This document shows, one piece after another, positions 12,826-40,262 of a stretch of 64,000 nucleotides of DNA. Origin of the DNA: Trissonchulus latispiculum. Lineage: Eukaryota > Nematoda > Enoplea > Enoplida > Ironidae. Location: positions 1 through 64,000 of the forward strand of contig JASAND010021180.1 in NCBI GenBank assembly GCA_030248195.1. The letters are read 5' to 3'. The notes below the pieces were generated by a model, which searched no databases, was not told where the DNA came from, and saw only the letters and a list, made by a program, of their open reading frames with translations. Both the position numbers and the translations under genes were made by a program. Positions within the stretch are counted from its first letter, which is position 1. The number at the start of each line of letters is the position of its first letter.

Positions 12826-12904
12826 CTGTTAGAACGAACACAGATTGTTGCTCAGCATACAACTTATGACGAGGTTCGGGAAATTTAGGTACTGAAAACA
12901 TTGG

Positions 12905-15033: not shown

Positions 15034-15138
15034 GAATTTACAAAGTTTGTACGCCGTAGTTTGAAACCATACACAGACTCTGTGTGACGGCAGCTAATAT
15101 ACTTTGCAATTCTGAGCTTGAGCTAACCGTAGATAGAG

Positions 15139-15324: not shown

Positions 15325-15460
15325 CTAGAATTCATGTACCATTACCTTGTCCTCATTTTCATTGTGAATTTTACCTGTTCCCTGTAGATTCGTTCCTACC
15401 TGTACAGATTGTACAGTAATTCCTAATTTAGGAATTTCATTACTTTACTGAGTTAAGCAC

Positions 15461-16199
15461 TGTTCACGATGGAGTGCTTTGTACTTTGTGCTTTCTCGGT
15501 TCATGATCGCTTGAAAAGCACAATTTCCCGGTTCATGATGAATTTCTGTGCTTTGTGCTTTTGTGCTTTTGGTGTGCTTTGGAAATGTTTGGCAATGTCA
15601 AACATTTTGAGTTGTGCTTTCAGGGTTTTCCAATCCAAACAAGCTTTGCGCTATGCTGATTGGTAGAAAACTGAAACTGGACGTCACATAAGCACTACAG
15701 TACTACAGCACTACTACAGCACTACAGCACTCCCAATGCTGAAATAAAACTTTTTTGGACAAAAATAATTTAATTTTTGAGAGCATACTATTAAATACTT
15801 AAAAGTATTTAATAATTATCATAAATTAGCTATCCTAAATAAATAAAGATTTCCTGCAAAAATTTAATTAATCATGTTAATTTATATTAATTATTATTTT
15901 TAATTATTGTTAATGATCGTTATTATTATTGAGTTAAATCATATATATTGTTTGAAACGTCAATAAATTCGTCCTGTTAACGTTTATTTAAAATATCAAA
16001 ATTTTAAATACCCTTCGAACTTGCTTCCGTGAACTGTGCCTATGATATTGTGCTTTCTCATCATGAATCATTAGTTTTCTGTCTCCTGGGCACAAAGTAC
16101 AAAATACTGCCTCCTGAACACAAAGCACAAGGCACAAAGCGCAGGAAACGACAGCACAAAACACAGGAGACAAAGCACAAAACACTTCATCGTGAACCG
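15461..16199. mobile_element. TIR element rich in GTGCTTT motifs
   Basis: The left end TGTTCACGATGGAGTGCTTT and the right end (complement of GGTTCACGATGAAGTGTTTT) are inverted. GTGCTTTGT and GGTTCATGAT motifs recur just inside both ends (e.g. 15508, 15531, 16050-16160). The AT-rich middle is non-coding. No clear target duplication was found. Probably a non-autonomous DNA element. Confidence 0.55.
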
Positions 16200-19888: not shown

Positions 19889-20101
19889 GGTGGTGATTCC
19901 TTTTGGGCACATATTGTTATTTGGCGGCGTAAATCAAGATGAAATTTGATAAAACTTTTCGAAGTAAGTTCTTTTAGCGTTCTAACACCCTCCGCGCAAT
20001 CCCGATTCAAAAATTCGAGATTTCCGGTCAGAATGGTTTTTCCCAATTTCTGAACGTTTGGCAGCAGCAATACATTTATGACTATATTCATTCGAAAGAT
20101 C
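19885..20101 (+). mobile_element. TTAA-family element, copy D (5' fragment)
   Basis: It begins with the same TTAA that ends copy C, then GGTGGTGATTCCTTTTGGGC, and follows copy C closely through ATTCATTCGAAAGATC. There it is cut by the left LTR of the 20 kb retrotransposon. The missing remainder does not reappear after the right LTR. Confidence 0.75.
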
Positions 20102-20979
20102 TGGCCCAGAGACTGGATAAATGGCGACCAAAACCCTTTACTGGGGTGCTGTGCGCTTATAGACTGGATACGCAACCCGGACTGGAGATAAATTTCCAGG
20201 CCGACCTCGACAAGCCTCGCCAATTAGGAACACCAATTAAATCGTGAAACTTAACTCACTCCCACTACGTTACCCCAAACCTAGACCTTAAGTCCCTACT
20301 TACCGAACTAATAAAACTAAACCTAGCTAAAAACAATAGGCCAAGTGGCCGTGATTACAATATTTAATATAAAGACTGGGGGGGGGGGTATACAATAAAT
20401 TTTTGGACAAAAGACTTACACTTACAGATTATGATCCAATGGCAGGAAATACAGAAATCAGCATAAAATAAAATATATGGAATATAAAATATACAGAGCC
20501 CCGATAGCAAATTATTTGGGTGTCCCCCACCCAGCCTATCACCAGATTGAGTGGTCTTTACTAGTCTAACCCGACGTTCAAGACACTAGGGGACCCCAAA
20601 ATTTCGGTAAAATAAGACGTAAATAGCATAAATTTGAGCCAGAGAAAGACTGCAAAACCGACCACTCGAGACAAGCGCAAACCAAGACTGACTGGGCTTT
20701 TAAACGTAATCAAAGAATATGCAATCACGCGATCACACGTGACTTGCCCAGCCAATCAAATTTTAGATAGACTTTTGAGAGAATTTCGAAACCAAAATGA
20801 CAAATTGCTGATCTATCTTTGCAAAAAGACATACAATTATAACATTTCAAACACAAATTATGGGCTATCGGGGCAATTTTCACAAAAACTAGATACATAA
20901 GTTCGGACTAATTTTGGATGGAGAATCTTTTTAAATAATAATAAAATATGACAGTAGGGCATCACCGCCCTACTGTACA
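20102..20979 (-). repeat. 3' LTR (878 bp)
   Basis: It matches 39369-40262 along its length, with small indels and substitutions (by eye roughly one per 20 bases in the promoter-proximal half). It contains a G homopolymer near 20380 and a 10-bp perfect inverted repeat (20951-20960 / 20967-20976) at the coding-sense 5' tip. Confidence 0.92.
20951..20976. promoter_or_regulatory. Hairpin at LTR tip
   Basis: The stem ACAGTAGGGC / GCCCTACTGT has a 6-nt loop and is conserved exactly in the other LTR. At the extreme LTR end it may be an integrase-recognition or RNA-structure element (inference). Confidence 0.5.
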
Positions 20980-22617
20980 TGTCCCCAGGGCTTACCGCCC
21001 GAGCTCCTGCGAGGGAACTGGCGGAAACCCAAAATTTTGAACCGGAAAGAAATTTTTAAGAAACCAGAAATGAGGGCACGGCCATACATAATAGAGAGAA
21101 CAAGTAAGAAAAATAGAAAAATGCCAATGAGAAATAAGTAGTGAAAACAAGTGGTAGAAATGTCAGTAGAAACGAAAATTTTGTGAGGCCACGCAGGTAT
21201 GGAACCATCCCCGGATCCAACTACAAGGCGCCTGGGCTAAGGTCAACCACGGGTGGAGCGCCGGAGGACCGTCAGCTATGTAATCAGCTGGAATTAGAGC
21301 GAAAAATTTTGATAATTTAAAAGTACCGGATAGGGTGCCATTGCGCGGCATAGCGAGATCACCCTGAGACAGGGGAGCGCTCGCCTCACGACATCGAATC
21401 ACCTCGATGGTGGGCGCAGACTCACGAAGAGACTACGATGCCGTTACAGTGCTCATGGCTACACAACTATCAGATGGTAGGGAGGCATATGCCGCCGACC
21501 CTTCCAGTTTGGTAAGCGTAATTTTAGGGGCAGGGTTCGTTGGGACAACTACCATTTGCGCCCGCAAAAGTAGAATTTTAAGTTAAGGTGTGGTGACCGT
21601 ACTAAAGGGAATTAAGTAGGGACCTTTTCGTCCATCCCCGGACGCCTCACTGAACAAGTAACAAGAAATTTTGAACAACTAGAAAATTTTGATTAGCTTT
21701 TAGGTTACTTTTGGGACTTTTTAGGAAATTTTCACAAATACACAAGACAATACAAGAGCATAATACACATACATATATACATAAGACACAAGAATCACCC
21801 GTTTTTATTATGGCTAGACTTTTTAGGAATGACTTGGTTAGGTAGAATTTACTCAAGTTAAAAGGTTAGGTAAGAATTGAATCTATTTAAAATATTAGAA
21901 TTAAAATAAGGAATCTAAGGTTTAGATAAGAATGCGTAGAAAGGTAAAATTTTAGTAGTTAAAGAGATCGTTTTAAAAGGTAAGTAATTAAAATTAGATC
22001 GTTTTGAAATAAGAGATAAAACTTTGGTAGAAATGCTTAAAGCAACAAATTATGACTAAAAACGACTAAAAAACACAAAATACCAGTTTCATACAAAATA
22101 TACATGACACCTAACGTCTCTATCGCACTATCCAATCTTATTCTTCGGTGTCTTCTTTCTTCTGGGAATGGGTTAAAGTCACAGATCGGGAGGTAGATCA
22201 CAGTTTGTAATGGCAGTCAGAATAGGGAATGGCGTAGTTGAGCAATATAAAGTCCAATTTGAGGTAGAGTCAATATAGAGGATCATAATTGAGAATCATA
22301 AATAGGGTCATAATTATAGGCATAGTAGGGTAAGTCATGGATCATAGGATCAGGAGGGAAGGATATAGGTGTTGGGGTCTGGTAGGTACCAACCAATGAT
22401 TGGGGCAACATCCGCCGTTGCTTCTTCATTGAGGTACTGATGAGTCGTCGTCACCGCCGATGTTGAGGCTATGAGGTTCATCCGTCGTAGATTTTTACCA
22501 TAGGAAGGAGCCAGCTGGTCAACAAAACATCACCGTTCTGGACCTTTATCCTACCCATCACCGGGCAGGCCCAGCCCATCTCCGGGCGGGAGGGGAGAGT
22601 ACTAGGCTTCGCCATGC
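20980..22617 (-). other. 3' untranslated region of the retrotransposon
   Basis: About 1.6 kb lie between the ORF3 stop and the 3' LTR. I see no protein domain; the short frames are weak. The segment next to the LTR (coding sense AAGCCCTGGGGACA) lacks a real purine run, so the plus-strand primer is unclear. Confidence 0.6.
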
Positions 22618-25600
22618 CTAGTACTCGTTGAAGACGGGGCTGTGCTTATCCAGAGACAGCCGCTGATGGGCCTTCTCTGGATGCGCCGGGTCGTAGAGCA
22701 TAGGCCCAGCGCAAGGGCAGTACGTGTTGTCCTCCTGGCCGGGAGGTTCCAGGCCTTCAATGTATATGCCCGTTCTGTTGACCGGGAGGCGCAATCCCGC
22801 CGCTCTCATGCGTCTCGGCGGATCTACGATGCCGAAGAAAGGCGGACATAACCCGTCCGTCTGGTAGTGATGGACGGCATTCTCCATGCGCATCCGAATC
22901 ACTTCCAAGAAGTCCGCATGCTCCTGTGGACTTAGGCGGGTCTTAGTCTTCCAGTCCGCGAAGAAATCTTGCGGACCGCCTTGGGTGAACCATAGGAGCA
23001 ACTCCGTCCACAGGTTACCCGCGATACTGTGACCCTGGAAGATCTTTTGCAGTGAATACAAGTCAGGGTACTGCTGGGGCGGAACCTGCGCCAGCGAAGC
23101 GGGAGGCAGCCCTTGGAACGAGGGCATAGCGGGTTTAAAGCCCCAGAACTCCTCGCCAGTTGCCTCCGCAAACAGGCATAGGATGTTATCCAGTAGAAAT
23201 GCACGCAGTGCTGGTGACTGGTAGAAATAGTCCCAAAGCACGCGATATAGCGTCCGTACATTGTGACCGGCCTTCCAGCCATTATGCCATGGCGAGTCCG
23301 GGGGATCACGCAAACGTCTGGTGACTTCCACCTTTAAGACGCGACCGGGAGTGTTACCATGATGGTTAATGTACCTCTTGACGTCAGATCTCTTATAGTA
23401 GTGCGACTTGCGGAATTGGTACCCATGTTCCGGGTCCGGGAACCGCAGGGTCCCATGCTGCCGTAGGGTGAGTCCACCCGGTACGGGGTGCATGAAAGAG
23501 ACCTCAAAGCCTTCTCCCTTATAGGGGAAGACAAAGTCCGTTTCGGAGACGTCGACTATCCCGTCGAGTCCAGGCTGGTACCAGTTAGCATACGCACATC
23601 GGACCGCCTCACCTCTGTTGATCGTGTCAGCAGCGGCGTAATATACATCCTTATACGCCCTATAGCCGGGCCGAGAGAAAAGGTGATCATAAGGAGTAAG
23701 CTCCGGAAGGATGCGTCCCATCACTTGGGCATGGGCCAACTCACGAGTGGAGGCATACTCGGTAACGAACAAATAAGGTTCCGAGTCCTCCGTTGGCGGC
23801 TTATTAATGGCAATAAAGTGCCATGTAGCCGAACAAGTTTTTGGCCCACGCGCAAGCGGTTTACCACCTTCCGTGGAAGGCTCATTGTCCTCGATCCGGA
23901 CATATGGAGCCCACTGTGGGAATTTCTGCTGGAGCAAAGCACGGATCTGTGCGATGTCCATTAGTGTGACCGTGACTGCCCGTTCGCTCAACGGAGTGAA
24001 CCAGTCCGCAATAACCTTGCGGGTGGCAGTCAAAGCTGGGTGAGGGGCATTCCTACCCGGAATAGCCGGAATTTCGCTACATTCCCATTCATTCCAGAAG
24101 TTCTTATAGTAGACGCAGGGCTCCCTTTTTACCGGGACGCCTGCTACCTCGTCCGGCAAGGGCACGGACAGAGTAAAACGCGGATATTGCGCGTCCATGC
24201 TACCCTGCAAAGCGAAAATCCCAGTCTGATTTTCCTTTGCCAAGACATATTGTTCATAGAGTAGCTCACGGAACGAAGGGAAGTTAGCCGCAGTCCGGGC
24301 TTCTTCCAAGGCGCGTACCTGGTCCCCATTTACCGGGACTGTAGGGACGGGTGCCATAGCTACCGCCTTTCGCTTTTTCTTGGACCGGGTGCGAGACCGA
24401 GATTTATGTGCCCCAGTCAAGGGCTTCGGCTCCTCCTTTGGTGGATAGCCAGTACGGTCTGTGGAGAGGCTATGCCGCCTCTTATCGCCGGGGACTGCAC
24501 CTTGTGCTGACCCAGCAGGTGGTGCGTCGCGCGAACTAGACTCCGTTCGCTGCGTGGATGGTCCCGCCTGACGGTACTGGGCTGTAAGTCGCGCCTTCTG
24601 CCACAGGGCAGAAGCAGGCGACTGATATGGGCGTGGCTGTGCCTGCCCCGTAGGCCGCGGAGGCAACGTACCAAAACCTGTACCCGGTTGAGGTGGACGT
24701 TGTGGAGCCGTATATGCCGCGGCTCCAGCCTGAAACGGGCCAGAACGAGCGCCAGCCCCTACAACCGGTCCCGAGGGTGCCTGAGCCAACGTGTCCATTG
24801 GTTCCAAGGCAGCCTCCGGTTGTGGAGTCGCACGAGAAAGAGACGTGTCCCGTGACGAGGACGAGGAAGTAGTCCGTCTTAGGTCTACACCTTGTATAGA
24901 CCCAAAACGAGGTCCGCCCGGAAGAACCGGGAAAGGGCCGGTCGCAGGAGAAGCAGGCCGGACCGTCAATGGGCGATATACAGGTGCCCAACTACCCTGC
25001 TGTTGGCTCACGGGTATAGCAGGGAAAGACCGGATGGCCGCCGTAAGTCTATTTCCGACTATGTGGCTGGCCGACACCGGAAAACTTAACCCGCCATACC
25101 GAGGTACCATCCATAACAGGCCCCGAGCCAATAGAGTTGGACCCGGGTCTCGTCGGAAAACCATCATATCCGACTGTACGCGCCGGGCTGATTCCCGCGT
25201 CTGGGGATCTAGGTCAACAGGCATAGATATCCGGCTGAAGTACTCATCACCGGGTACCAGCGCATTAACTGACACGATTACGTGCAACGGATGCATTTGG
25301 ATGCTACCTTGTGCATCTTTCCAGAACATAACCTGTGCCCACCAGGGTAAGCCAGGTGTTAGCTCGGTGAGGACCTGCCAATGAACAGGGCCGAACTGCC
25401 GTATCGACTCGAGATATGCCGTCGGGTCGAAACCAGGAGCTGCCCGATCTAGGGCAGGACCTACAACATAGATGCGCACCGCATCGCCCTGTTGAAGGGG
25501 GTCCCAGGCATGGGCCGCGTCCATAACCTGGACATGATTTTCCCGGACATACCGTCTGGGTTGCCCTTCCTGTTGCATATCCGCAGGTAACAACACTGGT

Positions 25601-28600
25601 TCCTGATAGTACATAGCAGCAGGAACAAATCTATGCCGGGATGGACCAGCATAACCGGCCACTTCAGGGTGGAGCAAGAACCGCAAAAACTGCTCCAGCA
25701 TAGGTAAGGCAATATCGGGCACACCCTCATATACCGAGGTGTTTAAGCCCAGACGCTGCAGCTCCGCATGCGTCGGCAATGCCACCTGGTCCGGTTGTAT
25801 GACCGGTGGTGCTGGGGGTGGGATATTATACTGTTTAGGGTCAGGAAAAGTAGGGAAGACTAGCGAAGCTAGACTTGGCTGCTGACCAACTACGGCTTCG
25901 ACTGCTTGGCCTATAGCAGCAGCAGCAGCCTCGTGCGACAAACCCGTCGGAGGCCTTGAGGATGGACCAGGCTGCTGGTCATCCTCCTTCTTTGGTGGAG
26001 GCATCCACTGTTTGACAGGTACTGTGACCACCGATGACGTCGATGGTTCCGACGCCGTACTTGCTTGAGATGCCGTACGCTTAGCAGGCGTCGGCGGTTT
26101 AGGCGGCGGTGGAGGCGGAAGCTCCTGTTGCGACACACCCGCTCCGGATGGCGCTGGGTCAGGGGCGGACACCAGCAGCTCCGCTGGGTCCATCCAAGAC
26201 TTAATAGTTGGCCGAGTCGTAGGCGGGACTGGCTTTGGCGCCGGAGCCTGTACCGGCTTAGGCGCAGCCGCCGCAGGTTTCGGCGCTGGTTTAGGCGGTG
26301 CACTCTGGCGACGAGGAGCTCCACCACGTGGGGAAGTACCACGGCCTCTACCGCGACCACTCATACCGCTAGCTGGTTTGTGCTTGCGAGAGTACTTGGC
26401 ATTTGTAAACACCATACCCGGTGGATTTTCAGCCAACGATGGAGGTCTCTGTTGTTGTTGCTGTTGTGTACTAGGGCCAGGTCCAGACCCTGAACCGGCC
26501 GCAAACTGTGCCTGCGCTACCTCCTTTGGAGTGGGAGCAGCAGGTGGCTGCTGCTGTGCTGGCGGCGCCGCGGGCACATGTTCCGTGTCCGCAGCTTGAG
26601 GAATTAGAACCTGAATCTCGGGTTCTTCTCCTTCTTCAAGGGATTCCTCATCTGTGAGGTCCCAACCGGTAGGTTCCGGTTTCTCCGGGTCTTGACGTTG
26701 CCGCGGTGATGCTTGCCGAGGCCCCTGATATCCGGGAGCCAACGGGTGCACCCAACCGGCATAAGCGGCACGAGCACTATTCCAGTCCACGTCCGTGGGC
26801 GGGATTCGTGGAAAACGCCACAGGTACCATTGCCGAATAAAATCAACTAATGGCCTATAGATGGCATCGCGCAACCCATGCGCCGGGTTGGCGTGTTCAC
26901 CCAATCGTGGATCGAAAGACCAAAGGGGTGACTGGCGAAGTGAGTCGTCAGGTTGTGAGTCCACTTTCTGTGCAATGCAATAGCGTGCAAATTCTTGGCC
27001 AGCGGCTTGATACCCGCCCATCGTACCTTTCAGGGCGGTACACTGTTCACCTAACCGGTGAGGACCCATGCCCCTAAGGCGACACCGATTGATCTCCTCT
27101 ACAACCGAGGGACCAAACGTGATCGCAATGGTGGACAGAACCGCTACTAGTTCCACCTCGGCAGCTGTAAGAACAGCTGTCAGGATTTGGACAACTTCGG
27201 CCACCGTGATAACATCAGCCGCTGCGTAAATTATGTCCTGATCGTGTGGGATAGTCGGGAACCCGTGCTCACAGCACCGAGCCTCTTTAGGGTCTGGCAG
27301 CTTAAAGCGCTTCGCAATAGTTGCCAGCTTAGCGCCAGTATGCTGCTTAACGAAGCCGTCGGTGCCTCGTTTAGTCTCGATTGGTTTGGGCATCACGGTC
27401 GTATCCCCACGACCCCATAGATTCCAAACCAAGTTCCATAGTTCGCGGACTTCGATCAACCTATTTTCCAGGTTGCGAATCCCGAACGCCTCTGCCAACC
27501 GGCGAGCATCTGCCGGTGCGTCCACACAAGCAAAATAGGTGGACCTGTTGGAATCAAACAGCATTACTAGCAGCTGTAGAAAGGGAAAGTAGTCAGTCAA
27601 ATGGGCTAGAATGTAGCTAACCACAATGACATAGGTATGCGGGCGAGGCGCCCCCTCTGCACGGTTCACAGGACCCGTGAACTGCAGGGTGGTCACCGTG
27701 GCCTGCTGTGGCTGAAGGAATTGCATACCGTTCCCTCCTTCCACGTCCAAAGCCACAATCCGGGCTTCGGATATCATGGTCAGGATATCCGGGAATCGCT
27801 GCAGGAATTCAATAAAGGAGGTAATTATTGTCACATCAGGGTTGTCAACAATGCCCTGATATGTGGGCAAAGGGGTGGAAACGTCGTCTGGGGTCGTCTG
27901 CAATGCATGACCCAATGCGTAGGCCGCAGCAGAAAACTCATCATCCAAGTTTTCTGTGCCTTGGGCCACAAGTCGTCGCAACTGTTCGGTATACTGTTGC
28001 AGATGCTCAGCCAATTCGTCATAGCGAGCGCGTTGGAATGGGTCAATAGCGCCTACCACCCTAGGTGGAACCACTAACCGTGGTGGCACCGGTGGCGTCG
28101 GGTCGACCTCAACCACGTCACTGGTATCAGCTTCACCCGCTGAACCAGCAACGGATTCGTCTATCTGTAATGCAGACGTATCAGCCGTAGAAGGAGACTC
28201 CTCCTCCATAGGCTCGGTTGCAGGCTGATCCTTGTCGGCGCCTGCTATAGCTCGCTCAGCGCTCGACTCCGAGACTGCTGGCTGGTCACCTGCACCAGGC
28301 GCCTGAGCTAGAGGCATAGGCTCGTCGGCCTGAGGTTGAGGTACCTCGGGCTCTTCTGGGGCCGCCTGAGCTCCAGACGCTGACGGACTGTTGGCCACAT
28401 CAGGCAGGTGGGCACACGTTGCTGCCTTTAGAGCTTTAGTCTGTGAACGGGTCACCCTAATAGGGGCGTCAGGATCTGCCAGTCGAGACAGTGAGCTAGT
28501 CGCCTTCAGCTGGCCACTGGACTGAGCCTTCTCCGGCTGTCCTGGTACTGGAGGCGGTGTAGGCAACGCCTGTCTGTCGCTGGAATCTGAGAAAACAGAA

Positions 28601-29127
28601 CCTGGGCTAGGTGCTGCTGGTGTGCCCTCTCTCTGTAGACGGGCCACATTCTGTTCAAGGCCGGATTCCATAGACCAGAATCCGCCAGTAAAGTGCTGGT
28701 TAGACCCAGTCTGTACCTGTAGGGGAGACTCATCCGCAGCCGGACGGTCAAGACCTGGTGGCGGAGCGACAGGGTCACCCAGGCCAGGTGGTGGGTTCGC
28801 ACCCGGCTCTAGGCCAGGGGGCGGATCTAGCCCTAGATCCTGCCTAATACCCCATGGGTGGCCAGGCTGCCCTGGAGGCACCTGTGCCGCTTGGTCGCCG
28901 CCCGGCTTCACAAGCTCGTCGTCCTCCTTTTCCGGAGGATTCTCTACTGCAGGCAAGTCAGGGTTATCAGGGTCGTCCATAATCTGGAGCGAATCCCAAA
29001 ATCTCTCCGATAATACGGGATACCCTGTATTAGATAAATTATTCAAGTCGCCTGGACTTACTGGCGCAGGAGGATTCGGTCGTTCAGGAAAATCTTTGGC
29101 CACTCGGAAGGAGAAATTATTTCCCAT
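22618..29127 (-). CDS. Retrotransposon ORF3: 2169-aa protein with DEDDy exonuclease-like domain
   Basis: This is an intact frame 3' of pol, the position where some elements carry env, but I see no signal peptide or membrane segment. It starts MGNNFS, fitting the N-myristoylation pattern (G2, S6). Residues ~10-370 are Pro/acidic and disordered. At ~450-650 lies a DnaQ-like 3'-5' exonuclease pattern: motif I ALDVEGG (D-x-E), motif II around DARRLAEAFGI, a helix GAKLATIAKRFKLP, and motif III YAAADV (Y-x3-D), all close to the RNase D/WRN/EXD families. Then come a Q-run (~886), an RG-rich patch (~925), further Pro-rich linker, a basic NLS-like RSRTRSKKKRK (~1576), and a globular C-terminal ~550 residues (rich in W/Y/F) that I cannot assign. 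Start: first ATG of the frame. The role is unknown; processing of cDNA or RNA ends, or countering host RNA silencing, are inferences. Confidence 0.88.
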   Translation of the reverse strand: MGNNFSFRVAKDFPERPNPPAPVSPGDLNNLSNTGYPVLSERFWDSLQIMDDPDNPDLPAVENPPEKEDDELVKPGGDQAAQVPPGQPGHPWGIRQDLGLDPPPGLEPGANPPPGLGDPVAPPPGLDRPAADESPLQVQTGSNQHFTGGFWSMESGLEQNVARLQREGTPAAPSPGSVFSDSSDRQALPTPPPVPGQPEKAQSSGQLKATSSLSRLADPDAPIRVTRSQTKALKAATCAHLPDVANSPSASGAQAAPEEPEVPQPQADEPMPLAQAPGAGDQPAVSESSAERAIAGADKDQPATEPMEEESPSTADTSALQIDESVAGSAGEADTSDVVEVDPTPPVPPRLVVPPRVVGAIDPFQRARYDELAEHLQQYTEQLRRLVAQGTENLDDEFSAAAYALGHALQTTPDDVSTPLPTYQGIVDNPDVTIITSFIEFLQRFPDILTMISEARIVALDVEGGNGMQFLQPQQATVTTLQFTGPVNRAEGAPRPHTYVIVVSYILAHLTDYFPFLQLLVMLFDSNRSTYFACVDAPADARRLAEAFGIRNLENRLIEVRELWNLVWNLWGRGDTTVMPKPIETKRGTDGFVKQHTGAKLATIAKRFKLPDPKEARCCEHGFPTIPHDQDIIYAAADVITVAEVVQILTAVLTAAEVELVAVLSTIAITFGPSVVEEINRCRLRGMGPHRLGEQCTALKGTMGGYQAAGQEFARYCIAQKVDSQPDDSLRQSPLWSFDPRLGEHANPAHGLRDAIYRPLVDFIRQWYLWRFPRIPPTDVDWNSARAAYAGWVHPLAPGYQGPRQASPRQRQDPEKPEPTGWDLTDEESLEEGEEPEIQVLIPQAADTEHVPAAPPAQQQPPAAPTPKEVAQAQFAAGSGSGPGPSTQQQQQQRPPSLAENPPGMVFTNAKYSRKHKPASGMSGRGRGRGTSPRGGAPRRQSAPPKPAPKPAAAAPKPVQAPAPKPVPPTTRPTIKSWMDPAELLVSAPDPAPSGAGVSQQELPPPPPPKPPTPAKRTASQASTASEPSTSSVVTVPVKQWMPPPKKEDDQQPGPSSRPPTGLSHEAAAAAIGQAVEAVVGQQPSLASLVFPTFPDPKQYNIPPPAPPVIQPDQVALPTHAELQRLGLNTSVYEGVPDIALPMLEQFLRFLLHPEVAGYAGPSRHRFVPAAMYYQEPVLLPADMQQEGQPRRYVRENHVQVMDAAHAWDPLQQGDAVRIYVVGPALDRAAPGFDPTAYLESIRQFGPVHWQVLTELTPGLPWWAQVMFWKDAQGSIQMHPLHVIVSVNALVPGDEYFSRISMPVDLDPQTRESARRVQSDMMVFRRDPGPTLLARGLLWMVPRYGGLSFPVSASHIVGNRLTAAIRSFPAIPVSQQQGSWAPVYRPLTVRPASPATGPFPVLPGGPRFGSIQGVDLRRTTSSSSSRDTSLSRATPQPEAALEPMDTLAQAPSGPVVGAGARSGPFQAGAAAYTAPQRPPQPGTGFGTLPPRPTGQAQPRPYQSPASALWQKARLTAQYRQAGPSTQRTESSSRDAPPAGSAQGAVPGDKRRHSLSTDRTGYPPKEEPKPLTGAHKSRSRTRSKKKRKAVAMAPVPTVPVNGDQVRALEEARTAANFPSFRELLYEQYVLAKENQTGIFALQGSMDAQYPRFTLSVPLPDEVAGVPVKREPCVYYKNFWNEWECSEIPAIPGRNAPHPALTATRKVIADWFTPLSERAVTVTLMDIAQIRALLQQKFPQWAPYVRIEDNEPSTEGGKPLARGPKTCSATWHFIAINKPPTEDSEPYLFVTEYASTRELAHAQVMGRILPELTPYDHLFSRPGYRAYKDVYYAAADTINRGEAVRCAYANWYQPGLDGIVDVSETDFVFPYKGEGFEVSFMHPVPGGLTLRQHGTLRFPDPEHGYQFRKSHYYKRSDVKRYINHHGNTPGRVLKVEVTRRLRDPPDSPWHNGWKAGHNVRTLYRVLWDYFYQSPALRAFLLDNILCLFAEATGEEFWGFKPAMPSFQGLPPASLAQVPPQQYPDLYSLQKIFQGHSIAGNLWTELLLWFTQGGPQDFFADWKTKTRLSPQEHADFLEVIRMRMENAVHHYQTDGLCPPFFGIVDPPRRMRAAGLRLPVNRTGIYIEGLEPPGQEDNTYCPCAGPMLYDPAHPEKAHQRLSLDKHSPVFNEY

Positions 29128-30182
29128 ACACGGGCAACCAAAGGAGAGTCCAAATCAGGATCGTCGTAAATAGGAATAGGAAAGTCGTTACAAACCAGTA
29201 ATAACCAGTAAATCGTAGCAAAATAAGCGCAATCGCAAATTAAGCCTAAACAGAAACAAAACAAAATACATTACCGTGCTCAACCCATTGGCACACAAGG
29301 GTACCCCCCTTTCTTAGCCAATGGGAAGGGTGCAGGGGCAGGGAAACCATAGTTGATAGCGGGGATCCCCCACTATCAGAGGGCAGGGAGGGTTAGCATA
29401 GACCGCCACCCCGGGTGAAATAGGTAGGTGTGTATACCCACACCCCAAACTTTGAGTACCAGTGCGTACAAGAGAAAACTACAAAAAAGAAATGCCAAAA
29501 GGGCAAAATAAGTGAGAGCATGATTGATGTGCTTAGGTAGTGATAAAACACATACGTAAGGCCCACAGGCCGGTGCAAGAACCTGAAAGATGCGTGTGTA
29601 AGACCTAACTAAGATAAAAGAACCTAACTAAAGAAACCTAACTAGGAGTGCAGGAGAGGTAGGGAGGGAGGCGGTGTACCTAACACCCCTCCGAAAAAGG
29701 AAAACCCCGGAGTTTTAGGATCCTTTTATTTAGGGGAAAAAATAAATTAGATTAAATAAATCTTAGGGATTTACCACGAAACGAAGTAGACCCCCTATAG
29801 GAAATTTTTGGGAAAAGGGAAAAATAATAAGAGTAGGAATGTAAAGTAGTAGGAATCTATTAGTAAAAAAAGGAAAACTAAAATAGGGAGGAGTAACTTT
29901 ACAACGAAATACCCCCTGAAAAATAAGTTAGAATAAATTGGAATGAGTTAAAGTAAATTGGAATCTAGAGGATCCTAAAAAGAAGGAGGGGCACCCACCC
30001 CAGGGGAGAAAAAAACCAGAAAAAATCATGCTAACACTAATACAAGAATTACAAATACAAGAACCTAGCTACGAGCGATCGCTACAAGGAATTAGATACG
30101 TCTGGCCAGACGATTTACAGGTACAATAGGCCGATAAGTACCGGTACTTCGGATGTTAGGATTCACCCGGAGGCATAACAAA
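29128..30182 (-). other. Spacer between pol and ORF3
   Basis: 1,055 bp without a credible ORF, AT-richer than the flanking ORFs. A subgenomic or spliced mRNA for ORF3 would need its start or acceptor here or just downstream; I can point to no single site. Confidence 0.5.
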
Positions 30183-33100
30183 CTAGATTTCAATGACAGG
30201 CAACTTGACTGGCTTGTCAACAAACGGTTTCAAGCGGTTTATATTCACGATGGTAAGCTCTCCCTGACCTTTCACCAGGCGGATTTTGTATGTAGAAGCC
30301 GAGAGCTTTTCCACCACACGATAAGGGCCTTCATATTTGGGCCTCAGCTTCTTACATAAGCCAGAAGGGACGTTCTTATTCTCGACGTTGAGCATAACCA
30401 GAACCCCTGGTTTGTACTCGACTGGGCTGGCTTTCAGGTCATAGCGCTCCTTATTTACCAGAGCCGCTTCTGCCAGATGTTCGTGTGCAATTCGCCATGC
30501 CTCATCTAACCGAGACACTAAATGGCTACTAACGTCGCCATAGTCTTTGGTCAAGTCCCCGCTCCGGGACTTGAAGAAGTTATCCTCAGGAAACCGGTAA
30601 TCCCTACCAGTCATGAGGAAATACGGTGTCTCCTTGGTAGAGCTATGCACCGTAGCTCGATAAATACAGAGACCCCAAGGCAGGTAATCGTCCCAATTAT
30701 CCTGGAACCGATTAACATACTTAATGATAAGTCCACGTATTGTCCGGTTGAACCGCTCAACGACTCCGTTGGTTTGCGGGTGGTACGCCGTGGTTCGGTG
30801 GCGTTCCGAACCGCTGGCGTCAACCAGGGCAGTCATGAACTTGGACATAAAGTTCGGGCCTTGGTCTGTCAGAATGCATGCTGGTGCGCCCCACCGGGCC
30901 ACGAAGCCATTAAAGTACCAATAGGCCGTGGTCTCGGCCCGTTCATTGGGCATAGCAAACGCTTCTGCGTATCTAGTGAGATAATCCACGATGGTAAGGA
31001 CGCAGGTATTATGGCGCTTCGTGCCATTATTGCCGAAGTGCATGACGTCCATGGCCACCATATCCAGTGGCCGTCTGACAGTAACTATATTTCGCAGGGT
31101 GGCCTGATGCCGACGAGGACCATCGTTGAACTGGGCACAGGCTTTGCACTGACGAATAAAGTTGGTCAAGTCCTGTGACATGGTAGGCCAATAGTACCGC
31201 GAGGCCAGACTAGCATGAGCCTGGGTATAGGCCCTGTGTCCACCGGAAGTAAAGTCTGAATGAGCCTCGGCCAGGATGCGGTCCCGCTGACTCCGCGGTA
31301 CCACAACCGTTTTAAACGAGGCTCCTCGTTTCTGGCCCCGCTCATTCAGTAGGGACCGGTAGAGGACACCGTCTTCGATGGAAAAATCGGCCCGAAACTT
31401 CAACAGGTTAGAGGCCGCGTCAGCATCAGACGGCAGCTTCTTATGCTCCATATAATCCAATAGAGCTGCGAATTCTGGTTCTTCGCGAAGCTGACGTTTC
31501 CAGCCCACTAGGGTATTGGGAGGTGGCGGCTCCACCACCGTGACTGGACACACCTCCGGTGGATACATCTGCTCCGTGCCATCCACCGTTGCCGAGGCTG
31601 GGTCGTCGAGGGGGTCGTACCGTGACAACGTATCCGCCACGTTGTTAGTACGGCCTTCTTTGTATTCGACTACGAAATCGTAACCCTGGATTTCGAGTGC
31701 ATACTTGGCAAGCTTACTCTCAGCTAACCGCTGAGGGTTATTCAGCAGGTCCCGTACCGCCATATGGTCGGTCCGGACAATAAACTGTCGACACGACAGG
31801 TAATGCCGGAACTTCCGACAGCCCCATATGGCTGCCAAGCCTTCCATTTCCGTGGGTGACATGACCTTCTCGGAGGGTATTAAGGCTCGGCTGGCATAGG
31901 CCACCGGCCGTTCCTTAAGTACCCGTGGTCCCAGTGGATTGTGCATGCTTCTAGGCACCGAAGCTTGCTGTTCCAGAACCGCTCCAAGCCCGCGCTTGCT
32001 AGCGTCCACGGTAACATAGAAGGTCTTGTCAAAGTCGGGGAAGGCCAGTACGGGAGCCTCTGTCAAGCAAGCTTTCAAGGCCTCGAAAGATTGCTGGCAT
32101 TCGTCTGACCAGACGAATGGTACGTCCTTTTTAAGTAGGGCCGTCATCGGGGCCGCCACCTTGGCATAATTAAGGACGAACCGGCGGTAATAGCCACACA
32201 TGCCCAAAAAGGACTTAATACCCTTAACGTCCTTAGGTGGTGGCATTGTGGACACCGCCTCAACCTTAGCAGGGTCCACACTTATGCCGTGGCTGCCCAC
32301 ATAGTGTCCGAGGAACGGCACCTGTTCCCGGGCGAAACAGCACTTCTTGAGTTTGATTCGAAGGCCGTTCTCCCTCAGGCGCTGTAAGGTAGACCGGAGG
32401 ACGTCTAGATGGGTCGCCATATCCGGCGTTGGTATCAAGACGTCATCAATGTACACCGGCAAGTCTGTCAGGACCTTCTCCATAATGCGTTGGAAGGTCG
32501 CCGGCGCATTACAGAGACCGAACGGCATTACGTTCATATGGAAAAGCCCCATATGCGAGACGAATGCCGTCTTTTCCCGGTGTTCCGGGTAGACTTCGAC
32601 CTGCCAATACCCGGCGGCCAAGTCAATGGTGGAGAAGACAGCCGCCCCTTTTAGTTGGTCCATGATCTCATCGATCTTGGGCAAGGGGTAGCTGTCCTTC
32701 TTGGTTATCCGGTTAAGCCGACGATAGTCGATAACAAGGCGCGTGGTCCCGTCCTTCTTACCCACCAATATACAGGGGGAGGACCAGGGACTAGTCGAGG
32801 GAGAACACACTCCCTCGTCCAGCATTGCCTTGATATGCTTCTCTATCTCGGCCTTATCCTTTGGGTTGGTCCTGTAGTACCGACTTTTGATAGGACCTTC
32901 CTTGCCGGTGTCAATGATGTGTTGGTCTACCTTGGTTCGACCCGGGTTCCCAGGTCGAGCCACCACATCATAGTATTCCACCAGAAGGTCCTTCAACCGG
33001 GCCTGGCCATCCTCATCCAGGATAGTAGCCTCAAAGTCGACATTCTCTTCAATGAACTGCAACCTCTCCTCAAGTGGAGGCAGTGGTTGCTGCACCATCT

Positions 33101-36041
33101 CATCAGCCGAGTAGTGCATGTCATTGAAGGCATTGAGGCCTTTTTCGTTCAAGGCGGGCGGCTCCTCGTCCGGAGCCGGGTCCTTGAGCTGGGCAGGGCA
33201 GACTATAGGGTCCACCCAACACCACCATTTCTGGTTGTCGGTGGACGTTTGCGGAGCCATATTACCTGGGTCCACTTGTTGATACTGTTTGAGTGCCTGC
33301 CTCAGCTCAACGGACGACACCTTCGCTGCCGGGTGTTCAGTCCACGCGTCGATTTGGCGGTGTAGCTGAACCGAGTGAGCGCCCCACTCAGCTGCAAATC
33401 GGTACCCCTGCGCCGAGGTAACCGGAATAATGGGCTCCGCTTCACCCAGTGGCAGCCCTTTGGGTAGCTCGACAGCTACATCCAGTGGATTATAGATCTG
33501 AAGATAATCCACTTTCTCGGAGGCTTGGATCACACCCGGTATAGGGTATACTTCGTACTCCTCCATGATAGCCTCAGAAGGTTCGAAGTATACCGCGCGG
33601 TTGAAATGACCCGGCGCCCGCCGAGCGCCCTGAATAAGGCAGCGAACACCCACGAAGGTTTCCGCTCGTGGTGGTATTTGCCGCGTCTCTCGGACACAAT
33701 ATAGGATATTCAGGGACGTAGCAATACTAAACCGATTTGCAAGCACCTGCAAATCGTATGGGGTAAGGAGGGGAATCTTGAGGCTACCCGCTCTCACCGA
33801 GTGGTCACTAGGATTAACCATCCAGTGATTCTCGGCCTGGAAGTCGTAGCCCAAGATAAGGTCTTGGTGGAGGCCATAGGCTACATGAAAGGTGTGTACA
33901 TACGACACCCCTTGTAACTTGAACTCGACTTGGCACTCGCCAATAAGCTCAAGTTGCGACTCCTCCGAGGCTGTAGCCGCCTTAGAGGCTTTGGTTAAAT
34001 CCACCAAAAGCTTCCCAGTCTGATTGATTTGGTCGAACAATTGTCGGGACATGAGTGAGATATTCGCTCCCGTGTCCAGGAGAGCCAGGGTTTTGACCCC
34101 TTGTACCTCAATGATAAGGTACGGGCTCTTTCTCATGGCTATCTTCGTACACTCGGACACGAAGAACCGAGACCGTCCTTGCACGACCGAGCGGACAGCT
34201 CGGCTCAGGTTGCGGTCATCCCCGACAGCTGTAGAGGCATCGGAATCACCTTCCGATTCGCCGGCCTCTGGTTCGAGACTGGTGGACGGTGTAGCCTCTG
34301 ATGGAACGCCAACCCGGTGTTCATCAGTCGGCAGCTCTTCCCGAGCTACCGGTTCAGAGCTCAGTACCTCGATTTCCTCCTCGGGTACTGAAAATTGCAC
34401 TCGTCGGGGCTGGGGTGGATCCTCACTCCAGATAGGTTGGTTGGGATAGCGCGCAGCGCGCGATTCCTCAACCTGTTTCAGCCTATCTTGATCCTTCTGG
34501 GCGAATTCGGCCAAAAGCCGGTCGAATTCCAGTGCTTGGCGCTTTACGTAGTCGACTGAATTCTCGAAATGGGACGCCATAGCCCGGATCTTGTAGGCCA
34601 CCTGATCTTTCTGTGTATCCAGGGTAGACAAGGCTGCTTGGAGTTCAATCCAGCCCTGCTCTAGCAGCTCCATCTCCGTATCCTGGAGTGCTGCGAACCG
34701 GTTCTGGGTGGGGACAGGGCTGTCTGGGACCGGGTCACTACACCGTGACCGATCCGTTACCTGTTCCCACTGACCCTCGTCGTCCCGACGTAGGCGTACG
34801 GGTGGAATTGTGCGTGGTGGAGACGCTCGTGAAGCCGCAACTGGGAGTGGGCCACCATCGGAATCCTCCTCCTCCGAGGTGGATGGGAGGCGGCGCGGTG
34901 GTGGCGTTATCTGGGCTCTGGTTTGAGTGCAGGAGCCACCAGGACCCTCATCGTCCGAGGTGTCCTCCGGTTGGGTAAGCTCCCTAAAGGTACGGTAGTT
35001 GCTAGGATCCCGCAACTTCCGTTGGTGGAGCTCTTGAGGTGGTGTCGGCTTAGTAACCACCACTGAAGGCGGGCTCCGCCTTCGGGGTGGAGTAGGGGGT
35101 ACTACCTGAGAATCTGGTACCACCTCGTCTGTAGCTGGGCCTGTACTAGTCGAGTTCCGACCAGCAGGAGTCGTATCCCCAGGGCTTAAGACAGAAACCC
35201 CTGTATCCGGAGTCTGTCGGTCCCCAGGGCTTAAGTCAGAAGCCCCGCTGGATACTGGAGGCGGCTCCCCAGGGCTTAAACCTGAGGCCTCGGGCCGCTT
35301 TGATGGCTGCTGGGGCTGCCTCTTGAAAGGCAGTAGGGGCGGTGCAGAATTTATGAGGTCGACTTGTACCTCCTTAGAGGCTACTGAGGGCTTAGCCGCC
35401 TGTCCGGCGGCTGAGGTAGCCCGTTTCTGGCGTTTCTGCACCGCGCATGCCTCGGCATCTTCTATGTCGCTCAACGTCTGAGTGACCGCTGCGATCTGGT
35501 TCCACTGGGTACCGGACACTCCAAAGCGTCGGTACGTACTGGGGTTTTTCCACCCGAGCCTAGGGGGTTTCGCATCATCGCGAACCGGCCCTTGACCTGG
35601 GTTCCAACCCCCAAAACCGAAAGGCTTCACCGTCTTTCGCCAGCGGTTCCAGAATTTATGAGGCCGAGGTATGCCATTGCCATCAAAGAAGAGGCCTCCG
35701 CCCCCTGGGAAGCCTCCATTGTCGAGTACCACCTGCCGAGGTGGGATCCAGTTCTCTTTGTTTTTCCGCTTCTGGAGTTTCTTCTTGCACTTCTTGCAAG
35801 TACAAACGTACGTATCCCGTACGAATGTCAAGGGCTGGGTTCCGGGTCTAGTGTATGCCTCAGGCTGCAGGACACACCCGTCCTTCGCAGCCACTTCAGG
35901 GTTACCAGACATCGCTGGCCACCCATCCGAGTCATCACTGTCCCAGAATCGGGGTTCCGGAAATTCGGGAGGGTTAAAAGGGGAGGGACCCATCGACCCG
36001 ATAGGTGGGGTGGGGGCAACAATCATGTTGACTACGGCCAT
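30183..36041 (-). CDS. pol: Pol polyprotein (protease, RT, RNase H, integrase), 1952 aa
   Basis: Intact Ty3-type Pol. Residues 1-~600 are an unusual extension: a Cys/Lys cluster (CTCKKCKKK, ~85), three LSPGD-type repeats (~250-295) and a coiled-coil-like segment (~455-530). The aspartic protease has ALLDTGANISLM (~650). RT spans ~1060-1250 with RLVIDYRRLN, PFGLCNAPATFQ and YIDDVLI (~1197). RNase H starts at FYVTVDASKRGLG (~1335) and ends near NNVADTLSR. Integrase has an HHCC finger (~1590-1635, ending CKAC), the D,D-35-E core (VAMDVMHFG ~1663, ILTDQGPNF ~1722, NGVVERFNR ~1760) and a GPY/F-type C-terminal module (KYEGPYRVVEKL, ~1905). It makes cDNA from element RNA and integrates it. The frame is different from gag and stays open through gag's stop, so frameshifting or re-initiation is possible; the first ATG lies 26 nt beyond the gag stop. 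Confidence 0.95.
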   Translation of the reverse strand: MAVVNMIVAPTPPIGSMGPSPFNPPEFPEPRFWDSDDSDGWPAMSGNPEVAAKDGCVLQPEAYTRPGTQPLTFVRDTYVCTCKKCKKKLQKRKNKENWIPPRQVVLDNGGFPGGGGLFFDGNGIPRPHKFWNRWRKTVKPFGFGGWNPGQGPVRDDAKPPRLGWKNPSTYRRFGVSGTQWNQIAAVTQTLSDIEDAEACAVQKRQKRATSAAGQAAKPSVASKEVQVDLINSAPPLLPFKRQPQQPSKRPEASGLSPGEPPPVSSGASDLSPGDRQTPDTGVSVLSPGDTTPAGRNSTSTGPATDEVVPDSQVVPPTPPRRRSPPSVVVTKPTPPQELHQRKLRDPSNYRTFRELTQPEDTSDDEGPGGSCTQTRAQITPPPRRLPSTSEEEDSDGGPLPVAASRASPPRTIPPVRLRRDDEGQWEQVTDRSRCSDPVPDSPVPTQNRFAALQDTEMELLEQGWIELQAALSTLDTQKDQVAYKIRAMASHFENSVDYVKRQALEFDRLLAEFAQKDQDRLKQVEESRAARYPNQPIWSEDPPQPRRVQFSVPEEEIEVLSSEPVAREELPTDEHRVGVPSEATPSTSLEPEAGESEGDSDASTAVGDDRNLSRAVRSVVQGRSRFFVSECTKIAMRKSPYLIIEVQGVKTLALLDTGANISLMSRQLFDQINQTGKLLVDLTKASKAATASEESQLELIGECQVEFKLQGVSYVHTFHVAYGLHQDLILGYDFQAENHWMVNPSDHSVRAGSLKIPLLTPYDLQVLANRFSIATSLNILYCVRETRQIPPRAETFVGVRCLIQGARRAPGHFNRAVYFEPSEAIMEEYEVYPIPGVIQASEKVDYLQIYNPLDVAVELPKGLPLGEAEPIIPVTSAQGYRFAAEWGAHSVQLHRQIDAWTEHPAAKVSSVELRQALKQYQQVDPGNMAPQTSTDNQKWWCWVDPIVCPAQLKDPAPDEEPPALNEKGLNAFNDMHYSADEMVQQPLPPLEERLQFIEENVDFEATILDEDGQARLKDLLVEYYDVVARPGNPGRTKVDQHIIDTGKEGPIKSRYYRTNPKDKAEIEKHIKAMLDEGVCSPSTSPWSSPCILVGKKDGTTRLVIDYRRLNRITKKDSYPLPKIDEIMDQLKGAAVFSTIDLAAGYWQVEVYPEHREKTAFVSHMGLFHMNVMPFGLCNAPATFQRIMEKVLTDLPVYIDDVLIPTPDMATHLDVLRSTLQRLRENGLRIKLKKCCFAREQVPFLGHYVGSHGISVDPAKVEAVSTMPPPKDVKGIKSFLGMCGYYRRFVLNYAKVAAPMTALLKKDVPFVWSDECQQSFEALKACLTEAPVLAFPDFDKTFYVTVDASKRGLGAVLEQQASVPRSMHNPLGPRVLKERPVAYASRALIPSEKVMSPTEMEGLAAIWGCRKFRHYLSCRQFIVRTDHMAVRDLLNNPQRLAESKLAKYALEIQGYDFVVEYKEGRTNNVADTLSRYDPLDDPASATVDGTEQMYPPEVCPVTVVEPPPPNTLVGWKRQLREEPEFAALLDYMEHKKLPSDADAASNLLKFRADFSIEDGVLYRSLLNERGQKRGASFKTVVVPRSQRDRILAEAHSDFTSGGHRAYTQAHASLASRYYWPTMSQDLTNFIRQCKACAQFNDGPRRHQATLRNIVTVRRPLDMVAMDVMHFGNNGTKRHNTCVLTIVDYLTRYAEAFAMPNERAETTAYWYFNGFVARWGAPACILTDQGPNFMSKFMTALVDASGSERHRTTAYHPQTNGVVERFNRTIRGLIIKYVNRFQDNWDDYLPWGLCIYRATVHSSTKETPYFLMTGRDYRFPEDNFFKSRSGDLTKDYGDVSSHLVSRLDEAWRIAHEHLAEAALVNKERYDLKASPVEYKPGVLVMLNVENKNVPSGLCKKLRPKYEGPYRVVEKLSASTYKIRLVKGQGELTIVNINRLKPFVDKPVKLPVIEI
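35176..35281 (-). repeat. Three ~45-bp coding repeats in the Pol extension
   Basis: TCCCCAGGGCTTAA recurs near 35176, 35221 and 35268, encoding LSPGD/LSPGE-type repeats in a proline-rich linker. The same CCCCAGGGCTTA also occurs at 20983-20994 beside the 3' LTR. Confidence 0.7.
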
Positions 36042-38635: not shown

Positions 38636-39368
38636 TTTTGGCCTAATCTAAATACGTATGAAACTGGTGTAGAATTAAAATTAGTACGTACGTGAGATCT
38701 AGTATGAGAAAAATTACCTAAAGACCCAAAATTAGATAAGAAAAAGTGGTAAAAAGTACTGGTTTTGGTTAAAAACTGGTTGACAAAAATACACAAAAAA
38801 ACACAGAACAATATACGAGCTGGGTAATATTGGCCACCAAAGGTGCGTATCAACAAGGAAATTGGAAAATACGCACAGAAAATAGCCCAAGAATACGACA
38901 AAAATACGTAAGAATTACCGACAAAATGTCCTAGTTTACGCCAAAAATACGTACGTATCCCTCAGAAATGACAGGGACACGCCGCAAACAGGCCGGATTT
39001 TTGACAAAAATTACGACAGTAATGCAACAAGTACCCACAAAATGCAAGAAAAACCCCGAAATATGACCAGAAATTATGACAAAATTAGATTAGAACCCCC
39101 CGAGAAAAATTGGGAATTTTACCCCCAAAATTGGCTAAATTTGTACAATATGGCAATACAAATACAGAAGAACCCCCAAAAAGTACGTACAGGATTTTTC
39201 CTAGCCCGGAAAAATACCTAGTGGGCCTTGATTTTTCTAGGTCCAGAAAAATCGAAAATATTTTCCTGGTTCCGGAAAATATTTTCCCCACAAAATATAG
39301 AAAACGTACGTAAAATTTACAAAAATTGGCGAGGTGGAGGCCGAAACTGGCAGCCTATTGTAAAGATT
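38636..39368 (-). other. Retrotransposon 5' leader
   Basis: 733 bp between the 5' LTR and the gag ATG, AT-rich, with many TACGTA motifs. Immediately inside the LTR the coding strand reads AATCTTTACAATAGGCTGCC; this lacks the TGG start expected of a tRNA-primed PBS. The only TGG is inside the LTR end itself (TGGGGCCA). Confidence 0.6.
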
Positions 39369-40262
39369 TGGCCCCAGAGACTGGATAAATGGCGACCAAA
39401 CAACTTTACCGGGGTGCTGTGCGCTATAGACTGGATACGCAACCCGGACTGGAGACGATTACCAGGCCGACCTCGACAAGCCTCGCCAATTAGAATGCAC
39501 CAATATATCGTGAAACTTAGGCTCACTCCCACTACGTTACCCCAAACCTAGGCCTTAAATACCCTACTTACCGAACTAAAAAAACTAAACTTAGCTAAAT
39601 ACAATAGGCCAAGTGGCCGTGTTACAATATTTAATATAAAGACTGGAGGGGGGGGGGGGGGGGGTACAATAAATTTTGGAAAGATACACTTACAGATTTA
39701 CAGATCCATGATCCAAAATAGCAAGAAAATACAAAAATAGCATAAAATATCAAATAAAGAATAATAATAGAAATAGAGCCCCGATAGCAGAATATTTGGG
39801 TGTCCCCCACCCAACCTATCACCAGATTGAGTGGTCTTTAATAGTCTAACCCGAAGTTCAAGACACTAGGGGACCCCAAAATTTCGGTAAAATAAGACGT
39901 AAATAGCATATATTGGGCCAGAGAAAGACTAAAATTAACCGACCGTCTAAAGCAAGCGCAAACGTAAGACTGACTGGCCTTTTTAAAAGTAACGAAAGAA
40001 CGTGCAATCACGCGATCACACGTGACTTGGCCAGCCAATCAAATTTTAGATAGACTTTTGAGAGAATTTCGAAACCAAAATGACAAATTGCTGATCTATC
40101 TTTGCAAAAAGACATACAATTACATTATTTCAAACACAAATTATAAACTATCGGGGCAATTTTGACAAAAACGAGATACATAAGTTCGGACTAATTTTTG
40201 ATGGAGAATCTTTTTAAATAATAATAAAATATGACAGTAGGGCATCACCGCCCTACTGTACA
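39369..40262 (-). repeat. 5' LTR (894 bp)
   Basis: Pairs with 20102-20979. It includes a longer G homopolymer (~39645-39664) than its partner and the same tip hairpin at 40234-40243 / 40250-40259. As 5' LTR it should hold the element promoter; no unambiguous TATA box can be chosen among several AT-rich stretches. Confidence 0.92.

Follow-up and report, generated by a model that had tools for sequence, protein, structure and literature searches.

A giant third gene with DEDDy exonuclease-like and NADAR-like domains in a clade of nematode Ty3-type retrotransposons

What is encoded by the third long open reading frame (ORF) of a giant Ty3-type long terminal repeat (LTR) retrotransposon, and is it a gene at all? 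The question is raised by positions 22618-29127 of a 64,000-nucleotide stretch of the genome of the nematode Trissonchulus latispiculum (positions 1 to 64,000 of contig JASAND010021180.1, assembly GCA_030248195.1; hereinafter, the window), in which a first-pass annotation described an intact 2169-codon frame, downstream of a complete pol gene and inside matched LTRs, with a DEDDy 3'-5' exonuclease-like domain. The frame, hereinafter ORF3, was borne out exactly and lies on the minus strand, which had not been specified. The reported setting holds as well: the three long frames, namely intact gag, intact pol and ORF3, follow each other on this strand between LTRs of about 0.9 kb, in an element that measures ~20.2 kb between the LTR ends (Table 1). 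In addition to the exonuclease-like domain, ORF3 possesses an overlooked NADAR (ADP-ribosyl-guanosine hydrolase-like) domain, because of which this protein is more unusual than the first-pass annotation supposed.

Copies of ORF3 were sought in the entire assembly (733.8 Mb, 21732 contigs). Given that 22 of the 4221 candidates were scored, the counts are lower bounds: at least 30 matching stretches on 21 contigs, with at least five copies, including that in the window, full-length and free of stops. Among the five full-length copies, the ratio of nonsynonymous to synonymous substitution rates (dN/dS, pairwise Nei-Gojobori) is 0.11 for the whole of ORF3, indicative of purifying selection, for which the first-pass annotation had proposed such a check. 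The ratio drops to 0.05 in the exonuclease-like region (residues 420-700) and to 0.02 in the C-terminal NADAR region (residues 1856-2110), the most constrained of the eight regions tabulated, and is highest (0.29) in a low-complexity stretch, all these values being descriptive averages without error bars over pairs that have a common history. In a second family (six loci around the exonuclease-like domain), dN/dS is 0.12 overall and 0.09 in the exonuclease-like region.

The absence of the ORF from all other copies of the family had been named as a result that would speak against it; the opposite was found, namely many copies and six further families. The exonuclease-like region matches at least 140 stretches in the same genome (138 of the 638 candidates scored) which, short fragments aside, fall into groups of about 81-100, 47-52, 39-46 and 33-38% identity; 29 of the 140, counted by eye, are located inside an open frame of 2100 amino acids (aa) or more. 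In the seven-family alignment, which consists of the window ORF3 and one representative of each of the six other families, ORF3 is 21-60% identical between families. The 3 kb upstream of ORF3 were examined for pol in five of the other families; in the sixth (C6615), the contig ends close to ORF3. In four of the five, ORF3 has an open pol end on its own strand at a distance of no more than about 1 kb, 53-71% identical to that of the window element; in C1223, the fifth, the match was confined to a fragment of the protease region. Given this position of pol in four of the five families, ORF3 is, as judged from these alignments, a stable third gene of a Ty3-element clade that diverges faster than pol, and the five intact copies together with their low dN/dS show that it is more than a chance frame and evolves under purifying selection.

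The motifs on which the exonuclease assignment had been based, ALDVEGG, DARRL and YAAAD, appear in the DEDDy order, and the catalytic pentad that they comprise (D461, E463, D540, Y634 and D638) is invariant in all seven families. Across 35 loci, which include many close copies, two of them on one contig, and are therefore not independent, Y634 and D638 are present in every case, D540 in all 33 loci read at this position, D461 in 32 of 33 and E463 in 31 of 33. A second YAAAD in ORF3 (D1834) is not the catalytic one: its aspartate is outside the family-invariant residues. An hhalign comparison of the family profile with seven DEDDy sequences, among them E. coli RNase D and NrnC-like enzymes, gave a collinear match from DxE to YAAxDV, with a score of 31.1 over 149 columns, against a maximum of 22.9 for 150 column-shuffled profiles and 12.2-17.6 for the other three ORF3 regions.

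Several results weigh against this assignment. The HH-suite probability of the same comparison is 27%, and both profiles are thin. The Pfam family PF01612 matches the window piece with E 0.045-0.12 and 12.6-14 bits, compared to a cut-off of 23.6; the match is confined to the final third of the model (118-172 of 173). Two of the seven families reach E <= 1 (best 0.043). The exonuclease profile retrieved seven PDB sequences at E <= 10, with no DEDD enzyme among them, and no relative of the region was detected in protein databases (4417 candidates, E <= 0.001; 7997 candidates, E <= 10). The AlphaFold model of the domain, predicted from a single sequence without an alignment, has a predicted local distance difference test score (pLDDT) of 35. 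Scans of viral contigs with the exonuclease and NADAR family profiles, and with RNase D, also yielded no relatives. Thus, single-sequence matches to DEDDy exonucleases are weak, whereas the pentad and the collinear match above all 150 shuffles stand, so that the assignment to a DEDDy-type 3'-5' exonuclease-like domain, with its five catalytic positions all retained, is supported. Between Exo II and Exo III, residues C618, C619 and H628 are kept in five of the seven families and might form a metal site. The role in small-RNA (EXD1-like) defence that was suggested in the first-pass annotation is speculative.

The NADAR-like domain was detected independently by Pfam (PF08719, residues 1891-1997, E 0.0012) and by PHROGs (PHROG_1017, E 0.0039; E. 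coli YbiA matches the same PHROG at 1.2e-38). Six of the seven families match PF08719 (best E 3.1e-6), which is the only Pfam family matched at E <= 1. For the seven-family profile of this region, E. coli YbiA is the sole PDB match at E <= 10 (E 0.44, profile positions 80-142), and the profile-profile score of 41.9 (probability 86%) exceeds the maximum of 21.0 in 150 shuffles. Two residues located seven positions apart, E1900 and K1907, are invariant in all seven families and align with the invariant glutamate and lysine of 39 NADAR proteins. Their counterparts in the P. nicotianae enzyme are E43 and K50; mutagenesis of an E. coli NADAR has shown that these positions matter when ADP-ribose is removed from guanine (PMC11543638).

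Here too, some of the results argue to the contrary. The window protein scores 19.6 bits compared to the PF08719 gathering score of 35.1, and with a profile of close YbiA relatives, the window piece scores 1.6 bits in hmmsearch, the same as the best of 1000 shuffles (1.6 bits). In hhalign, the latter profile gives a collinear match (P 0.0029, probability 11%); the models that set the window domain apart from shuffles are those of wider scope, from Pfam and PHROGs, and the profile built from the seven families. The third catalytic residue, E1988, which by its position in the alignment is likely equivalent to E125 of the YbiA subfamily, is glutamate in five families and lysine in two, in which the NADAR activity may therefore be lost or changed. 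The structural model (40 sequences) has a pLDDT of 51, with 60 of its 241 residues at 70 or above, and a Foldseek search with this model yielded a best E of 1.5 and no NADAR entry among the 50 matches listed. What the alignments show is a NADAR-like domain that keeps the two best-conserved active-site residues.

How could such a protein be expressed? ORF3 is separated from pol by 1055 nt, and the part of this spacer that precedes ORF3 contains a conserved block of about 240 nt. In the alignment of the five copies, 52-58 of 60 columns are identical in each of the four 60-column segments of the block, compared to 31-49 of 60 in the remaining spacer; the block is nearly as conserved as the end of pol, where most segments have 54-60 of 60 identical columns. 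The block includes a polypyrimidine run that ends in TTTAG. A spliced or otherwise separate ORF3 RNA appears likely. The predicted RNA fold of the block is not better than those of shuffled sequences (z score -1.37), and accordingly, we make no claim of structured RNA.

We consider it probable that ORF3 is an auxiliary multi-domain protein involved in nucleic-acid end-processing and ADP-ribose removal, with counter-defence against the host as the probable purpose. Under this scenario, ORF3 would be produced from its own, probably spliced, RNA and would act on the nucleic acids of the element: the exonuclease would trim or remove 3' ends of cDNA or RNA, and the NADAR domain would strip the ADP-ribose that host ADP-ribosyltransferases place on guanines, or else process free ADP-ribose derivatives, so that the two would jointly protect or repair the RNA or cDNA of the element against host defence during replication. 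Reversal of host ADP-ribosylation has been proposed for the NADAR domains of animal RNA viruses (PMC9503650). A 20-kb retroelement with domains of both kinds would be in keeping with counter-defence and with the maintenance of nucleic acids. What has been observed is the gene itself, along with its conservation and the similarities of its domains; the mechanism as a whole is our inference from these.

The alternative that survives best, although we deem it unlikely, is that ORF3 is catalytically idle, that is, a nucleic-acid-binding or structural protein in which the exonuclease and NADAR folds are binding platforms. Inactive DEDD relatives, such as Maelstrom and EXD1, act in this manner in the biology of PIWI-interacting RNAs; the long Pro/Ala-rich linkers of ORF3 and the altered NADAR catalytic position in two families fit this possibility, and so does the C618/C619/H628 cluster, which recalls the Cys-His-Cys of Maelstrom and of the ORFs of Vesta elements (PMC5408684). 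The invariance of all five exonuclease catalytic residues, however, would be unexpected for a dead enzyme.

We hold it quite unlikely that the exonuclease instead proofreads or polishes the 3' ends of cDNA (mispaired or non-templated), making a 20-kb genome copyable; the precedent is ExoN, present in nidoviruses whose genomes measure 20 kb or above (PMC7968707). The complete pentad, the length of the element and the fact that DEDDy enzymes include proofreading domains all speak for such a role, but the exonuclease is encoded apart from pol, and other giant retroelements, e.g., Burro, have no exonuclease as far as the available text of PMC6431247 goes. Counter-defence and end-processing are rated likelier than proofreading.

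Chance resemblance of the motifs, with ORF3 being some other conserved protein, appears improbable: the sub-threshold Pfam scores, the lack of a confident structural model for either domain and the failure of the single-sequence NADAR test with the close-YbiA profile are what one would then expect, but the invariant pentad, the collinear profile match with its clean controls and the agreement of Pfam and PHROGs on NADAR would not be accounted for. Finally, the location downstream of pol behind a candidate splice site would suit an envelope gene or a substitute for one, but ORF3 has, by eye, no hydrophobic N-terminal signal, no R-x-[RK]-R site (hydropathy and motif scan), a single 19-residue stretch above 1.6 hydropathy, which is inside the exonuclease-like domain, and six N-glycosylation sequons in 2169 residues, so that this reading is extremely improbable.

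The first-pass annotation presented ORF3 as a candidate for a new system, but a wholly new kind of system it is not: ORF3s with DEDDy domains were published in 2017 from bdelloid rotifers, for LTR retrotransposons (Juno and Vesta) and for Athena/Terminon retroelements (Rodriguez, Kenefick and Arkhipova 2017, PMC5408684), and DEDDy exonucleases of Terminons are described elsewhere as well (PMC6431247). Juno and Vesta share with the nematode element the LTR organization and a third ORF with an RNase D-like DEDDy domain, and in one species, two enzymatic domains, DEDDy and GDSL, are combined in one ORF3 (PMC5408684). In contrast, the nematode ORF3 is 2169 aa long and contains NADAR, which goes unmentioned in the available text of PMC5408684, and two further conserved blocks; it is also under strong purifying selection, whereas the bdelloid extra ORFs are reported to show no significant departure from neutrality within genomes (PMC5408684). 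Kinship with the bdelloid DEDDy domains is not indicated by any match among the 7997 scored candidates at E <= 10, in a search that involved no direct comparison with bdelloid sequences.

NADAR domains of the YbiA family have been reported inside retrotransposons, too, in a Gypsy lineage of the brown alga Ectocarpus and in ORF1 of Tx1 long interspersed nuclear elements of the oyster (PMC12477816). The nematode domain differs from these in its place, towards the C-terminal end of a giant ORF3 that is a frame of its own and that also encodes the exonuclease-like domain. The nidovirus ExoN is a DEDDh enzyme and part of the virus replicase, whereas the DEDDy domain described here belongs to an accessory ORF of a retroelement. 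The large nidoviruses share with this element a long RNA genome (at least 20 kb), the presence of a DEDD exonuclease and, in some cases, an ADP-ribose-processing domain (Macro or NADAR; PMC9503650, PMC7968707). The likeness suggests convergence, not common descent. The Burro giant Gypsy elements of planarians are likewise giant Ty3 elements from animals and carry numerous additional domains (BCL2, BIR, MATH, ankyrin, dUTPase, env and others), which belong to a giant ORF1 polyprotein or to accessory ORFs; the available text names no exonuclease and no NADAR domain among them (PMC6431247). No report of NADAR paired with an exonuclease in a retrotransposon was found in the open-access literature searched. 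What is new is the pairing of DEDDy and NADAR domains in one giant ORF3 that is conserved across a clade of Ty3 elements.

Domains seen separately in unrelated retroelements are united here in one strongly selected protein with many intact copies, which makes two ideas testable: that animals employ ADP-ribosylation-based defence against retrotransposons, and that long retroelement genomes, like those of long RNA viruses, need an exonuclease. Among nematodes, a trans-splicing protein that carries a NADAR domain has reportedly been described. The roles of NADAR proteins in animals are largely unclear (PMC11125620). A more far-reaching possibility, in our view rather unlikely, is that this clade of ~20-kb Ty3 elements, like the giant nidoviruses, acquired a genome-maintenance module that consists of a proofreading or repairing DEDDy exonuclease and an ADP-ribose-stripping NADAR. 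If so, the clade would, as far as we know, provide the first case of a retroelement that carries out its own proofreading; the NADAR domains of retroelements would gain a function, and ADP-ribosylation of nucleic acids would emerge as an animal anti-transposon defence.

Table 1. Features of the Ty3-type element in the window (approximate boundaries are marked; domain names denote predicted similarity)
Feature	Positions	Strand	Evidence
5' LTR (TGTACAG...TTTACA)	39359..40262 (904 bp)	-	direct repeat of 3' LTR; both ends match other copies
gag, 855 aa, CCHC zinc knuckle	36068..38635	-	PF13696 E 0.00049, under the Pfam threshold
pol, 1952 aa: long N-terminal extension, aspartic protease, reverse transcriptase (YIDD), RNase H, integrase	30183..36041	-	Pfam
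Conserved block with candidate 3' splice site (TTTTGTTTTGTTTCTGTTTAG, AG at 29247-29246)	29215..29450	-	five-copy alignment
ORF3, 2169 aa, ATG start, no internal stop	22618..29127	-	frame, copies, dN/dS, families
DEDDy-exonuclease-like domain, residues 430-700	27028..27840	-	Pfam, family alignment, profile-profile, 35 loci
Exo I motif, D461 and E463 (DVE, in ALDVEGG)	27739..27747	-	invariant in 7/7 families
Exo II motif, D540 (DARRL)	27508..27510	-	invariant in 7/7 families
Exo III motif, Y634 and D638 (YAAAD)	27214..27228	-	invariant in 7/7 families
Middle domain, unassigned kind, conserved, residues ~1140-1320	25168..25710	-	seven-family alignment
Pre-NADAR region, unassigned kind, conserved, residues ~1610-1855	23563..24300	-	seven-family alignment
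NADAR-like domain, residues 1855-2075; Pfam match 1891-1997 (E1900, K1907, W1951, E1988)	22903..23565	-	Pfam, PHROG, profiles
GTAAGCCCTGGGGACA, site expected for polypurine tract, directly before 3' LTR	20980..20995	-	similar motif in other families
3' LTR	about 20092..20979	-	direct repeat of 5' LTR; end approximate, last bases diverged

The rest of ORF3 is less readily assigned. Scans with the whole 2169-aa protein gave no Pfam match and no PDB match, the domains emerging only when pieces were scanned, and NCBIfam had no match for four ORF3 pieces. The middle domain includes 19 residues that are invariant in all seven families between residues 1201 and 1320; in Pfam, it has one weak match in one of the seven families (E 0.051) and, in PDB, none at E <= 1. 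For the pre-NADAR region, no Pfam family was matched. The only kind of PDB match of this region, to casein kinase (E 0.054-0.064, ~34 positions), was taken as chance, and so were two IMG/VR matches to residues 1637-1681, given that the overlap with the 220-aa ORF of the viral contig is only about 45 residues. Matches to Tako8 (short and repeated) and to hemocyanin (a short CCxHG...PH motif) were rejected as spurious. The first residues of ORF3 (29110-29127, minus strand) are MGNxFS in the window family as well as in L053 and L054, a start that resembles the N-myristoylation consensus MGxxxS; the L052 frame has no such start.

The window element has the LTRs, the Gag with a zinc knuckle and the Pol domain order (protease, reverse transcriptase, RNase H, integrase) by which Ty3/Gypsy elements are recognized; the reverse transcriptase, RNase H and integrase of Pol are above their Pfam cut-offs, and the protease is just under. 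The protease is preceded by an extension of ~640 residues (Pol residues 1-640) that is partly Pro/Ser-rich and contains a CTCKKCKKK cluster. A motif like GTAAGCCCTGGGGACA precedes the 3' LTR in three elements from two other families. A tRNA primer site starting with TGG, the start of ordinary primer sites to which this check was limited, was not found at the edge of the 5' LTR, where the sequence (39347-39358, minus strand) begins with ATAGGCTGCCAG; in three elements of two other families, the 5' LTR is followed by TTAGGCTGCCAG or TTAGTCTGCCAG, likewise without the TGG start.

The two LTRs of the window element are about 90% identical (Kimura two-parameter distance, K2P, 0.104-0.115). LTRs were compared in this element and in the copies on C14904, C1586, C9446, C18861, C4656 and C5683 (L016-L021, L143-L148). 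Partner LTRs diverge by 10-23%, with K2P of 0.115-0.231 in four elements of the window family and BLAST identity of 86-87% in two others; the sole element examined with near-matching LTRs is that on C5683 (99.3%). In two of the four window-family elements, the nearest LTR is not the partner LTR. If the divergence (K 0.10-0.20) reflected age, 12-24 stops per ORF would be expected, yet ORF3 is intact in all seven elements. Target-site duplications of 4-6 bp were found in none of the seven, with boundary shifts of up to 4 nt allowed; the 3' end of the window element and the ends of that on C18861 are uncertain, and assembly error is possible. Why intact copies should have mismatched LTRs and lack visible target-site duplications is a separate puzzle, for which recombination between copies, assembly chimeras and unusual replication are all candidates.

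As for the surroundings of the element, GC content is 0.51-0.58 across 22-38 kb and 0.34-0.48 in the rest of the window, and a frame for an amiloride-sensitive sodium channel (PF00858, E 4.9e-33), which is indicative of an animal host, is located in a flank of the element. Two long frames at 53397-55004 (plus strand) have no Pfam match and look like another retroelement, and 63017-63919 (minus strand) contains a fragment of a further reverse transcriptase (RVT_1, E 2.6e-4, short of the Pfam cut-off). Positions 12001-16000 display a strong purine/pyrimidine strand asymmetry over about 4 kb (GC skew above 0.5, AT skew 0.26-0.37), which gives rise to frames rich in Phe, Leu, Ser and Pro; these look spurious. 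Beside the element, at 40646-42660, a G-rich repeat of ~73 nt occurs three times, with spacings of 984 and 958 nt.

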